Shown here in pieces: positions 2,418-7,801 of a DNA stretch of 7,801 nt. Where the stretch lies: contig CADAPN010000086.1 of assembly GCA_902789835.1 (NCBI GenBank), positions 1-7,801 of the forward strand. The letters run 5' to 3'. How positions within the stretch are numbered: the stretch's first letter is position 1; every line of letters starts with the position of its first letter. Origin of the DNA: Oscillospiraceae bacterium (lineage in GTDB: Bacteria; Bacillota_A; Clostridia; Oscillospirales; Oscillospiraceae). The notes beneath the pieces are model-generated. The model did not search any database and was not told the origin of the DNA. It saw only the letters and a program-made list of their open reading frames with translations. The position numbers and the translations under genes are program-made.

Positions 2418-3188
2418 TTACTGTTTCCTGTTCTTCTCATACAGGATCCAGAGGCCCTTGAGAAGCAGGTTATCGTCCTGAATGACGGTATGTCGGCACT
2501 GCGGGACGATGGCCGAGCACAGGGACCCGGTGGCAACAACCTTACAGCGCAACCCCAGCTCCTGCTCCATCCTCTCGATCATCCCGTCGATCATCGCCGC
2601 CGTTGCAAAGATGGCGCCCGAGCGCATGGCATCCACGGTATTTGTGGCGATCACTTTCTTGGGCGGGGTCACGGAGATGTCCGGCAGCAGGCTGGTTCCC
2701 GCAGACAGCGCCTGAAGGCCGAGCTCAACACCCGGAATGATGATTCCGCCCCGATAGGTCCCCTTCTCATCGACGACGGTCATCGTGGTAGCCGTTCCCA
2801 TATTGAGGACGATCGCCGGTGTACCGTAATACGCAATGGCCGCCACACTGCCCACCACCAGGTCCCCCGCCAGTGTCGACGGGTCGTCGATCCGTACATT
2901 CATTCCCGTCCTGATGCCCGGTCCGACCACCATGACGTTCAGTCCGGTCAGGTGGTATATCGCCTCACACAGCGCTTCCGTCACGGTCGGCACCACCGAA
3001 CAGATGATCGCGCCCTCCAGCCGCCCGGGCGCAATGTTATAATAGTCCATCAGCTGCCGCAGCTGGATCCCGTACTCCGCAGCGGTGTATCTCGGCTCCG
3101 TATGAATCCGCAGGATATTCTCGATGCTTCCTTCTTCGATGGTTCCCAGCATGATCGCTGTATTTCCGACATCAATGGCCAGCAGCAT
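2418..3188 (-). CDS. coaX: Type III pantothenate kinase (divergent motifs)
   Basis: CoaX phosphorylates pantothenate with ATP, the first committed step of coenzyme A synthesis, in the cytoplasm. The 256-residue protein has the family's normal length and ASKHA fold signatures: phosphate loop DVGNT (6-10), [11 protein letters not shown] (89-99) for pantothenate binding, AGD (107-109) with the catalytic-type Asp109, GTATT (131-135), [11 protein letters not shown] (147-157) and NTVDAMRSG (183-191). Oddities: the conserved Asp before GTATT is Asn129, the usual Arg after Asp109 is Leu, and the usual TGGLA is TGSLC (220-224). ATG 3188 is chosen because AAGGAG lies 9 nt upstream and [10 protein letters not shown] is the family N-terminus. 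A longer in-frame start at 3251 lies upstream of the predicted -10 box and so would not be transcribed. It is divergent from glyQS. Family identity is secure; normal activity is less so. Confidence 0.94.
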
Positions 3189-3242
3189 TTCATCACGCTC
3201 CTTCCGTACAGGGAATCCGTGTTTTCTTTCTTCTCTTATTTC

Positions 3243-3270
3243 ATTATACACGATTTCCCGCTCTTTTCAA
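3243..3270 (-). promoter_or_regulatory. Predicted coaX promoter
   Basis: On the minus strand, TTGAAA (3270-3265) is followed by a 16-nt spacer and a perfect TATAAT (3248-3243). The transcript would start near 3236, leaving a leader of about 48 nt with the ribosome binding site AAGGAG just before the 3188 start. A perfect TTGACA further upstream (3292-3287) has no good -10 partner at standard spacing. Confidence 0.75.
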
Positions 3271-3295: not shown

Positions 3296-3324
3296 TTGCG
3301 GCAGAGGATCATTTGTGCTATAGT
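3296..3324 (+). promoter_or_regulatory. Predicted promoter of the glyQS-nadE operon
   Basis: TTGCGG (3296-3301), a 17-nt spacer and TATAGT (3319-3324), with TGC in front making an extended -10. The transcript would start near 3331, giving a leader of only about 50 nt. Its -35 lies 25 bp from the -35 of the divergent coaX promoter, so one bound protein could affect both. Confidence 0.72.
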
Positions 3325-3349
3325 ATCCAAGTCAAATTTTTACGTTTTA

Positions 3350-3366
3350 CGCGGCAGCCAGCCGCG
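3350..3366 (+). promoter_or_regulatory. GC-rich hairpin just upstream of the glyQS ribosome binding site
   Basis: CGCGGC (3350-3355) and GCCGCG (3361-3366) pair perfectly around the loop AGCCA. The hairpin ends 2 nt before AAAGGA (3369-3374), the ribosome binding site. No T-run follows, so it is not an intrinsic terminator. It may stabilise the message or affect ribosome access. The leader is far too short for a T-box, which often controls glycyl-tRNA synthetase genes in Firmicutes. Confidence 0.5.
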
Positions 3367-3379
3367 GGAAAGGACTCAA

Positions 3380-4816
3380 ATGAAAAACTCCGAAAAAACC
3401 ATGGACAAGATTGTTGCCCTCTGCAAAAACCGCGGTTTCATTTTTGCGGGCAGCGAAATCTACGGCGGTCTCGCCAACACCTGGGACTACGGCCCCCTCG
3501 GCGTAGAGCTGAAGAACAACGTCAAGCGCGCCTGGTGGCAGAAATTCGTCCAGGAAAACCGCTACAATGTCGGTCTGGATGCCGCCATCCTGATGAATCC
3601 CCAGACCTGGGTTGCCTCCGGTCATCTCGGCGGATTCTCCGATCCGCTGATGGACTGCCGCGAGTGCCACGAGCGCTTCCGCGCCGACAAGGTCATTGAG
3701 GACTGGTGCCAGGAAGTCAACTATGAGCTGCCGAAGCCCATCGACGCCTTCTCCCAGGCCGAGATGAAGGAATTTGTCGAAGAGCACAACATCCCCTGCC
3801 CCAGCTGCGGGAAGCACAACTTCACCGATATCCGTCAGTTCAACCTGATGTTCAAGACCTTCCAGGGTGTCACCGAGGATGCCAAAAACACCGTTTACCT
3901 CCGTCCGGAGACCGCCCAGGGCATTTTTACCAACTTTGTGAATGTTCAGCGCACCACGCGCCGCAAGCTGCCCTTCGGCATCGCCCAGATCGGAAAGAGC
4001 TTCCGCAACGAGATTACCCCGGGCAACTTCATCTTCCGCGTCCGCGAGTTTGAGCAGATGGAGCTGGAGTTCTTCTGCGAGCCCGACACCGATCTCGAGT
4101 GGTTCGACTACTGGCGCAGCTTCTGCAAGCAGTTCCTCCTGACCATCGGTCTGAAGGAAGAGAACCTGCGTCTGCGTGATCATGCCCCCGAGGAGCTGTC
4201 CTTCTACTCCAAGGCCACCACCGACTTTGAGTTCCTCTTCCCCTTCGGCTGGGGCGAACTCTGGGGCGTTGCCGACCGTACCAATTATGACCTGAGCCGT
4301 CACCAGGAGACCTCCGGTCAGGATCTCACTTACTATGACCAGGAGAAGAACGAGCACTACATCCCCTTCGTCATCGAACCGTCTCTCGGTGTGGAACGCA
4401 CCGTGCTTTCCGTGCTCTGCGACGCCTATGACGAGGAAGTTGTCGGTCAGGACAAGAAGGGCAAGGACGATGTCCGTGTCGTGCTCCGTCTGCACCCGGC
4501 TCTGGCGCCCTTCAAGTGCGCCATTCTCCCGCTCTCCAAGAAGGAAGTTCTCACCGGTCCTGCCATGGAGCTGTATCAGGAGCTCTCCAAGGACTTCATG
4601 TGCGACTACGACGAGACCGGTTCCATCGGAAAGCGCTATCGCCGCGAGGATGAGATCGGCACTCCGTTCTGCATCACCTTCGACTTCAACACCGTCGGCA
4701 CCGAGACCGATCCCGCCGATCACTGCGTGACGATCCGTGAGCGCGACAGCATGGAACAGGTTCGTATCCCCATCGACCAGGTCAAGAGCTACATCGCCGA
4801 TCGTATCCGGCTCTGA
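3380..4816 (+). CDS. glyQS: Glycyl-tRNA synthetase, alpha2 type
   Basis: This cytoplasmic homodimeric class II synthetase (also written glyS) attaches glycine to tRNA(Gly) using ATP. At 478 residues it is normal for the single-chain alpha2 type, unlike the alpha2beta2 enzyme. Visible features: N-terminal catalytic start with [15 protein letters not shown] (27-41); a Cys4 zinc site in the insertion (C93, C96, C140, C143); RPETAQG (175-181); motif 2 around FRNEI (208-212) and [11 protein letters not shown] (222-232); motif 3 EPSLGVER (333-340), where many relatives have EPSAGVDR; and the C-terminal anticodon-binding domain from about 365, with [16 protein letters not shown] at 415-430. ATG 3380 is chosen because AAAGGA lies 5 nt upstream and the protein then begins at the usual site; ATG 3401 is a less likely alternative. 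It is first in an operon with nadE. Codons end almost always in C or G, as in highly expressed genes. Confidence 0.97.
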
Positions 4817-4830
4817 TCGGGAGGCATTGA

Positions 4831-6735
4831 ATGAAAAACGGGTTTATAAAGGTCGCTGCCGCTTCCCCTGTGATTCGGGTCGCGGACGCGGACTATAACG
4901 CGCAGAGGGTGATTGAGGTCATCCGCTCCGCGGCCCAAAAGGGTGTCAAAGTACTGGTGTTCCCGGAGCTTACGCTTACGGGATGCAGCTGCTATGATCT
5001 CTTTACACACAGAGTCCTCCTTGACGGTGCCAGAGAGGCCCTGCTCAAGGTCGCCGATGAGAGCAGCGCATATGATCTTCTGGCCTTCGTCGGTCTGCCG
5101 CTCGCTGTCGGCGCGAAGGTCTACAACGTCGCCGCCGCGCTCTACCACGGCGAGATTCTTGCCTTCATTCCCGCCGAGGGGATCGCAGACGGTTACTTCT
5201 CCGTACCGGACCCCGAAAGCGATTATGAGGTCAATCTCCCCGGATACGGTCTGGTTCCCATGTCCTGCAGTGTGCTCTTCGAGCATGAGGCGCTTTCCGA
5301 TCTGCGAATTGCAGTGGAAGTGGGCGTAGGACTCCAGCGTTTTCTGACCCCCGCGGTTCGTCATGCGGAAGCCGGCGCCACGCTGATTGTTCAGCTGGGC
5401 TCCTTCCCGGAAACCGTCACCTCCCGTGAGGAAGCCGAGCTGAACGCCCGCTATGAGTCCAGGCAGTTTGCCTGCGGCATGGTATTGGCGGCCCCCGGAA
5501 AGGGTGAGAGCAGCACAGACCGCGTTTTCTCGGGACTCTGCCTGGTGGCGGAGAACGGGAAACTCCTCGCTTCCGAAGAAAAGGCGGGAAGCTTTGCGGT
5601 TTCCGAAATTGACGTGGAGCACATGATGGCCCTGCGCCGGTCTCTGGACTGCTTCGACGTCCCCTCGGACTATCTCCGTTTCAGCTGGGGCGGAGACCTT
5701 GAGGACACTTCCCTCACCCGCACCTACGCCATGCATCCCCATCTTCCGGAAACGGGAGAACAGCTCCCGGCCTATTGCCGCCGCATGCTGGACATCCAGG
5801 TCTCCGGCCTTGTCAAGCGCATGGAGTATGCTCACCTCGACCACTGTGTCGTCGGCATCTCCGGCGGTGTGGATTCCACCCTCGCCGTCATGGTCAGCGC
5901 GATGGCGGTTAAGCAGATGGGCCTTCCGTCCACCAACGTCATTGCCTGCACGCTCCCCTGCTTTGGCACCTCTTCCCGTACAAAATCCAACGCCATTGTT
6001 GTTGCCGAGCAGATCGGCGCCGAAGTCCGCGTAATTGACATCGGCAAGGCCGTGTATCAGCACTTTGACGACATCGGCCACGCTCACGACGATTACTCCA
6101 TCGCCTTTGAGAATGCCCAGGCCCGTGAACGCACCCAGGTTCTCATGGACATTGCCAACAAGGTCAACGGCCTCGACGTGGGCACCGAGGATCTCAGCGA
6201 GTTTATTGACGGCTGGTGCACATACAACGGCGACCACACCAGCATGTATGACGTAAACCTCGGCCTCACAAAGACCCAGGTGCGCGCCAACGTCCGTTAC
6301 ATTGCTGACACCACCGAGGACCGCGTACTGAAAGCCGCCCTTTACGATGTGCTGGATTGCCCGGTCACCCCGGAACTGCTGCCCATCCACGACGACCAGA
6401 TCGAGCAGAAGAGCGAAGACGCTGTCGGCTCCTACAGCCTGCAGGATTTCTTCACGCACAAGATGCTCATCTGCGGCTTTACCCCTTCCAAGACCTTCCG
6501 CCTTGCAAAGGAAGCCTATGGCAAGGACTTCACGGATGAAGAGCTGATCCGCTGGCTCACCAGCTACTGCAGGCGTCTTTTCAGCCAGCAGTTCAAGCGC
6601 AGCTGTCTGATGGACGGCCCGGCCGTGGAAGCCTTCACCGTTTCTCCGCGTGTCGGTTTCCTGATTCCGTCTGATGCGGAAGCCACACTCTTCCTCAAGG
6701 ATCTGGAGCAGCTCACCGTTGCTCGGGACGACTGA
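4831..6735 (+). CDS. nadE: NAD+ synthetase with a degenerate glutaminase domain
   Basis: NadE amidates nicotinic acid adenine dinucleotide with ATP, the last step of NAD+ synthesis. The 634-residue protein has the two-domain layout of the glutamine-dependent form: an N-terminal nitrilase-like glutaminase domain (about 1-265) and a C-terminal synthetase domain (about 320-630) with ATP loop SGGVDST (344-350), GTEDLSE (451-457; usually GTGDLSE), GWCTYNGDHTSMYDVN (461-476) and KSEDAVGSY (527-535). The glutaminase triad is Glu-Lys-Cys. Glu46 (FPELTLTG) is kept, but the Lys position of the usual VPK motif is Ala115 (IPA) and the Cys of the usual EICEDLW motif is Gly165 (EVGVGL). The following LPNY-EFYE-like stretch is also lost. 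Structural motifs GKGESSTDRVFSG (223-235) and AENG (240-243) remain, so the domain probably still folds. The enzyme is inferred to use free ammonia. GGGAGG (4819-4824) lies 6 nt before the ATG, and glyQS ends 14 bp upstream. Confidence 0.95.
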   Translation: MKNGFIKVAAASPVIRVADADYNAQRVIEVIRSAAQKGVKVLVFPELTLTGCSCYDLFTHRVLLDGAREALLKVADESSAYDLLAFVGLPLAVGAKVYNVAAALYHGEILAFIPAEGIADGYFSVPDPESDYEVNLPGYGLVPMSCSVLFEHEALSDLRIAVEVGVGLQRFLTPAVRHAEAGATLIVQLGSFPETVTSREEAELNARYESRQFACGMVLAAPGKGESSTDRVFSGLCLVAENGKLLASEEKAGSFAVSEIDVEHMMALRRSLDCFDVPSDYLRFSWGGDLEDTSLTRTYAMHPHLPETGEQLPAYCRRMLDIQVSGLVKRMEYAHLDHCVVGISGGVDSTLAVMVSAMAVKQMGLPSTNVIACTLPCFGTSSRTKSNAIVVAEQIGAEVRVIDIGKAVYQHFDDIGHAHDDYSIAFENAQARERTQVLMDIANKVNGLDVGTEDLSEFIDGWCTYNGDHTSMYDVNLGLTKTQVRANVRYIADTTEDRVLKAALYDVLDCPVTPELLPIHDDQIEQKSEDAVGSYSLQDFFTHKMLICGFTPSKTFRLAKEAYGKDFTDEELIRWLTSYCRRLFSQQFKRSCLMDGPAVEAFTVSPRVGFLIPSDAEATLFLKDLEQLTVARDD

Positions 6736-6745
6736 ATCCTCATTT

Positions 6746-6800
6746 CGTATCCCGTGCAGAAGGTTGAATTTGCGCGGGATATGTTTTTATCTTCATTTTA
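6746..6800 (+). terminator. Intrinsic terminator of the glyQS-nadE operon
   Basis: TATCCCGTGCA (6748-6758) pairs with TGCGCGGGATA (6771-6781), an 11-bp stem with one G-T wobble and a 12-nt loop. It can be extended outward by two pairs, 6746-6747 with 6782-6783. TTTTTATCTTCATTTTA follows immediately. It begins 10 bp after the nadE stop and separates the operon from gdhA. Confidence 0.9.
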
Positions 6801-6814
6801 TTTATTAAAAAGTT

Positions 6815-6842
6815 TCATGGCAGTTCCCGCATTATTCCATGA
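6815..6842. repeat. Short inverted repeat upstream of the gdhA promoter
   Basis: TCATGG (6815-6820) and CCATGA (6837-6842) are exact inverted copies separated by 16 bp, ending 7 bp before the -35 box of gdhA. The spacing of about two helical turns between half-site centres would suit a dimeric regulator, but six-base repeats arise by chance often. This is a candidate site only. Confidence 0.22.
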
Positions 6843-6849
6843 TTCACTC

Positions 6850-6877
6850 TTGACCTTTGATCAGTTTATGTTATACT
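6850..6877 (+). promoter_or_regulatory. Predicted gdhA promoter
   Basis: TTGACC (6850-6855), a 16-nt spacer and TATACT (6872-6877), with TG at 6869-6870 making an extended -10. The region is AT-rich. The transcript would start near 6884, giving a leader of about 55 nt that ends in the strong ribosome binding site AAGGAGG. Confidence 0.78.
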
Positions 6878-6899
6878 TGAATAAAGGAACAGCATTTGA

Positions 6900-7801
<902 letters not shown>

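Follow-up and report, generated by a model that had tools for sequence, protein, structure and literature searches.

The 7,801-nucleotide contig CADAPN010000086.1 of an Oscillospiraceae bacterium (assembly GCA_902789835.1), analysed over its whole length and hereafter called the window, carries a nadE-like gene (4831-6735, +) encoding a 634-amino-acid long-type nicotinamide adenine dinucleotide (NAD) synthetase whose glutaminase half is predicted to be dead. The protein consists of a nitrilase-like (pseudo)glutaminase domain (residues 1-285; 4831-5685, +) and an ATP-pyrophosphatase NAD synthetase domain (residues 300-634; 5728-6732, +; Pfam PF02540, 93.4 bits), the latter containing the SGGVDS ATP-binding loop (residues 344-349; 5860-5877, +). 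With the NCBIfam NAD(+) synthase model NF002730, whose cut-off is 473 bits, it gave a score of 598.9, and relatives likewise scored above this equivalog cut-off. The Pfam nitrilase model aligned to residues 7-109 only, and AlphaFold2 predicted that the complete two-domain NadE fold is retained. By these analyses the protein has the fused nitrilase-fold and NAD synthetase domains of the type F architecture; with its complete N-terminal domain, it does not have the single-domain, NH3-dependent type N architecture. Directly 5' of the gene lies glyS (glycyl-tRNA synthetase; 3296-4816, +), a name assigned from the sequence, as Pfam itself gives only a class II tRNA synthetase core. The Pfam scan also identified a MATE transporter (30-1436, +), a type III pantothenate kinase (2418-3251, -) and a glutamate dehydrogenase-type gene cut by the window end (6939-7799, +).

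The window protein was compared with its best 80 relatives, out of 586 in species-representative genomes. The alignment comprised 82 rows including the window, after two loci had been dropped (L025, truncated where its contig stops, and L030, which contains a run of ten N) and three second copies added. Sorted by the column of the nucleophilic Cys, 46 rows had Cys (intact relatives) and 36 had Gly. The window belongs to a Gly clade with a branch support of 100; it comprises 31 rows, one of them a duplicate (L102), and the residue counts for the clade refer to the remaining 30. Residue roles were mapped on M. tuberculosis (tb) NadE as described in part of PMC6946656. The members of the clade are recorded as uncultured Oscillospiraceae, Ruminococcaceae and other Clostridia, and several come from ruminant stomachs.

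The preliminary description of the window had claimed that the glutaminase domain lacks its catalytic Lys and Cys and that the segment after the Lys is rewritten, while the triad Glu stays. The codons were exactly as described: Ala115 (GCC; 5173-5175, +) maps to tb K121 and Gly165 (GGC; 5323-5325, +) to tb C176, so that Glu46 (GAG; 4966-4968, +; tb E52) is the only surviving member of the Glu-Lys-Cys triad. Both Lys and Glu are present in 46/46 rows with Cys. The clade has Gly at the nucleophile in 30/30 rows, and its Lys column holds Arg in 16, Ala in 5, Gln in 3, Lys in 2 and other residues in the rest. Ala at this site is thus confined to a few rows. Retention of the Glu, true of the window, extends to 26 clade rows (Ala in three, Val in one). 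A sequencing or assembly error can be dismissed with near certainty and was rejected: Gly165 recurs in every clade row from many assemblies, and residue 165 is Gly in 116 and Ser in 4 of the best 120 of 7,995 database matches.

The loss proved to be wider than had been noted. Only nine codons (5173-5199, +) remain of the Lys-to-Phe segment, which is longer in intact relatives and includes the YRE loop (tb 127-132), the element for glutamine binding and tunnel gating; this loop is deleted in the window and in 30/30 clade rows. Two clade proteins of 597 amino acids (L017:10001-11791 and L026:10001-11791) have lost most of the former Lys and YRE loop segment. The Glu beside the nucleophile (tb E177) is Val166 in the window (5326-5328, +) and is kept in 2/30 clade rows. 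At the first constriction of the ammonia tunnel, Cys52 (4984-4986, +) replaces tb Y58, which is Tyr in 46/46 intact rows vs 2/30 clade rows (L017 and L026), and Ala598 (6622-6624, +) replaces the constriction Lys (tb K644), present in 46/46 vs 0/30. The gate residue at tb 180 is Trp in 45/46 intact rows and in none of the clade. Arg at tb 576 is absent in 28 clade rows, and the contact of the loop with the synthetase is lost or nearly so. Because the Lys, the Cys, the Glu beside it, the YRE loop, the tunnel residues and the loop-to-synthetase contact are gone or nearly gone, with the fold predicted to be kept, the reading of the N-terminal domain as a pseudo-glutaminase is well supported.

The domain might still hydrolyse glutamine with residues in shifted positions, and the preliminary description had named Cys146 (TGC; 5266-5268, +) as a candidate. 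This residue is Cys in only 4/36 Gly rows, and it was rejected as a replacement nucleophile. Another cysteine, Cys237 (5539-5541), is Cys in 30/30 clade rows vs 3/46 intact relatives, which would suit a relocated active site. However, the Lys is missing in 28/30 rows, all 30 have lost the glutamine-binding YRE loop together with its second Glu, and we regard a working glutaminase as very improbable.

The glutaminase seems to have been lost more than once. Five more Gly rows (L037, L050, L058, L067 and L068) are placed among the Cys rows on the tree. The tree requires five switches of the Cys/Gly label, of which well-supported branches force four, and Gly formed a single clade in 0% of 200 bootstrap trees (careful tree, 46 rows). 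Such counts do not separate gain from loss, and we infer that Cys is the older state since all 46 Cys rows have an intact triad. In tb numbering, four of the five rows keep Lys121 and all five keep Glu52; they have an altered or shorter YRE segment but the original Gly481, Leu488 and Pro509. To judge from these residues, the five are at an earlier stage of glutaminase loss. In the aligned loci the replacement was always Gly, the Ser being confined to the four database proteins. The Cys codons (TGC 32, TGT 14) and Gly codons (GGC 24, GGT 6, GGA 3, GGG 3) are such that a single-base change can convert one residue into the other. A strained turn at the nucleophile may relax when catalysis is no longer required, which could explain the recurrent preference for Gly.

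The synthetase half has kept its site. The S, G, G, D and S of the ATP loop are invariant in 30/30 clade rows, and tb E455, W490, D497, K510 and F634 are present in all of them, so that the whole clade shows the SGGxDS loop and the NaAD (nicotinic acid adenine dinucleotide)- and ammonia-site residues expected of an NAD synthetase. E455, W490 and F634 are described as NaAD contacts of tb NadE in part of PMC6946656. Of 133 columns with at least 95% conservation among intact relatives, 96 are retained by 90% or more of the clade rows. For two other tb residues, F631 and E552, hardly any row of either group, intact or clade, has a counterpart. By the ratio of nonsynonymous to synonymous substitution rates (dN/dS), the synthetase half appears to be under purifying selection, constrained about as strongly as in intact relatives, and constraint on the glutaminase half is relaxed; many dS values exceed 1 and the ratios are rough, which also tempers their use in favour of a working synthetase.

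It is conceivable that the protein catalyses nothing, and is either a regulatory or structural pseudoenzyme that binds a partner or a remnant that is being lost. Redundancy with another NadE in the same genomes, described below, and the relaxed glutaminase half would fit this explanation. Nevertheless, the ATP loop and NaAD residues are invariant, the synthetase half shows about the same constraint as that of intact relatives, and the frame is unbroken in 29/31 fetched clade loci. The exceptions are L025, at its contig end, and L030, whose broken frame is only apparent and due to the ten N in the assembly. A pseudogene was rejected on the dN/dS values and unbroken frames, and loss of all catalysis is quite unlikely.

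We lean modestly towards a long-type NAD synthetase paralogue in which the dead glutaminase half is kept structurally and the synthetase half amidates NaAD with ammonia; among the functions considered, ammonia-dependent synthesis is the likeliest. The glutaminase half would remain for its structural role, and the synthetase half would adenylate NaAD with ATP and then amidate it with free ammonia entering from solution, bypassing the old tunnel. Ammonia is plentiful in gut and rumen, where giving up the hydrolysis of glutamine could cost a cell little.

One candidate for an accommodating change is Glu453 (6187-6189, +), a new acid adjoining the GT motif where intact relatives have Gly. Solved NH3-dependent NadE have Asp at this site in some cases and Ser in others, and speculatively Glu453 may aid ammonium handling. 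The likeness of Glu453 and GLTKTQ to the GTD and GLTKRQ of NH3-dependent NadE is only suggestive. A second new acid, Asp460 (6208-6210, +), stands two residues before Trp462 (tb W490, a nicotinate contact).

Several observations weigh against an ammonia-dependent NAD synthetase. Glu453, Asp460 and Thr480 are absent from the other four Gly lineages, and the short NadE in most clade genomes carries Gly after GT; the acid is therefore no general mark of ammonia use. More than half of clade rows have changed at 34 of the 133 conserved synthetase-half columns. Of 46 positions that are at least 90% fixed in the clade and held by less than 10% of intact relatives, 36 are in the synthetase half, beyond what the loss of glutamine use needs. 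At tb K560 of the P2-loop, most intact rows have L, I or V and most clade rows A or S. For the synthetase half, the branch leading to the clade reaches 1.03-1.1 changes per column, which is very long. Finally, another NAD synthetase occurs in 29/31 clade genomes, and it is not obviously needed beside a working ammonia-dependent NadE. The interpretation given in the preliminary description was thus partly supported: the pseudo-glutaminase stood, and the second NadE and the 36 diverged synthetase positions had not been foreseen.

The second NadE was sought in whole genomes with PF02540, short genes being counted above 150 bits. A short NH3-type NadE was present in 26 of 31 clade genomes (17/20 and 9/11 in two sets), including those of four near relatives of the window (L001-L004), and G015, G016 and G057 have in its place a long NadE with intact Lys and Cys. 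No second NadE was found in two clade genomes, G012 and G052; the assembly of G052 is probably incomplete because NadD over the cut-off is also absent. Among 44 genomes of intact relatives (sets of 25 and 19), two (G034 and G073) have a second NadE. In the five other Gly genomes there is a short NadE in G026 and a fragment at a contig end in G040, and none was found in G035, G047 and G048 at E 1e-15. Since both forms occur in single genomes, the clade gene is, by this comparison, a distinct and diverged paralogue of the long NadE, and where another NAD synthetase is present it is not the sole one. Bacteria with two NAD synthetases are known, as part of PMC3376133 records. For L050, L067 and L068, where no second NadE was found, the use of ammonia is predicted to be indispensable unless another gene escaped the search.

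A causal link from glutaminase loss to a second NadE was not established: the contrast of 29/31 vs 2/44 rests mainly on one large clade. A tree-aware test on 43 rows, with the G040 fragment scored as present, offered four to five independent contrasts, for which a sign test cannot reach 0.05, and included three Gly rows without a second NadE and two Cys rows with one.

The short NadE belong to at least two families about 35% alike. In three clade genomes, two short NadE occur together with the dead long one (L086/L103 in G010, L110/L112 in G060 and L115/L117 in G055). Ten neighbour proteins of short nadE were scanned; they include matches to purA, guaA, glnA, an Amt-PII fusion, pncB (with nadD adjoining it), murD and pepT, and three had no match at E 1e-10. 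The fusion is a 574-amino-acid gene (L091:2533-4257) that joins an ammonium transporter (Amt) to a PII regulator domain, and an open reading frame (ORF) at L103:2103-3827 matches it in size and place. In G011, short nadE, pncB (nicotinate phosphoribosyltransferase) and nadD lie side by side (L095:5324-8313).

The same data could mean that the synthetase half has been neofunctionalised and amidates a different acid, for instance another nicotinate nucleotide, with the second NadE making NAD. The separate NadE in 29/31 genomes (26 of the short type, one beside pncB and nadD), the long stem followed by conservation, and seven switches fixed in 30/30 rows (E453, D460, D474, T480, S528, Q538 and G609) are all consistent with a changed substrate. 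However, the NaAD-contact residues E455, W490 and F634 and the ATP loop are kept throughout, the NCBIfam score exceeds the NadE cut-off, S528 and Q538 are uninformative since tb NadE itself has Ser and Gln there, and two NAD synthetases in one bacterium have precedent in the work cited above. We consider this substrate change rather unlikely. The broader proposal, of an ancient NadE paralogue with a scaffold glutaminase half and an ammonia-driven amidating half that acts on a new substrate or in a new role alongside a distinct NAD-making enzyme, is possible, if somewhat unlikely. So far such a paralogue would be seen in uncultured Oscillospiraceae and related Clostridia, as one of several independent glutaminase retirements in the family, nearly always by Cys to Gly.

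Against M. tuberculosis-type glutamine-dependent NadE (NF002730; PDB 3dla and 6ofc), the clade differs in lacking the triad Lys and Cys, the YRE loop, the constriction Lys and the gate residues, and in its new fixed acids in the synthetase half. It would resemble type N NadE, such as B. subtilis 1ee1, in using ammonia, in GLTKTQ for GLTKRQ and in an acid after GT (compare GTD). It differs from type N in its full N-terminal nitrilase-fold domain, and its best sequence and fold matches are long-type. The C176A mutant of M. tuberculosis NadE (3sdb, 3seq, 3sez and 3szg), among the best fold matches, is a laboratory counterpart without the Cys, and its structures carry synthetase ligands except for the apo form 3sdb. 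Unlike the window clade, this mutant has a single point change with Lys, loop and tunnel residues intact. By analogy, the closest functional parallel is human carbamoyl phosphate synthetase 1 (CPS1), an ammonia-specific enzyme that in the account given in part of PMC4655335 keeps an inactive glutaminase-like domain after loss of the catalytic Cys and uses free ammonia. However, CPS1 has an unrelated glutaminase class (Cys-His-Glu triad) and chemistry, and its Cys became Ser, not Gly.

Amidotransferases are a textbook case of ammonia channelling. A natural lineage retaining a whole glutaminase domain without triad, loop or gate lets the non-catalytic purpose of the domain be asked, and the repeated Cys-to-Gly changes in separate lineages are natural replicates. 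All previously characterised fused NadE used glutamine, according to part of PMC3376133, and on sequence grounds the window clade is predicted to depart from this. Its proteins pass the NAD synthase profile as ordinary members, so that profile and length alone mislead as to the nitrogen donor. Among the open-access matches listed, no title or abstract opening described a NadE with a dead glutaminase, which is weak evidence of absence, and nothing relevant was found among those listed for rumen and NadE.

The clade gene also has a recurrent neighbourhood. Counting the window, a glyS-like gene lies within 10 kb in 31/32 loci and ends at most 430 bp upstream in 27/32; no such gene was seen next to 14 intact or other-Gly loci, of which several offer little upstream DNA. 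In L021, L022, L023, L028, L030 and L080, an ORF of about 111-164 amino acids lies between glyS and the dead nadE; the L080 copy (6529-6912) had no Pfam match. A glutamate dehydrogenase-type neighbour accompanies the nadE-like gene in 14/45 compared loci, all of them from the clade, and is on the same strand in 13.
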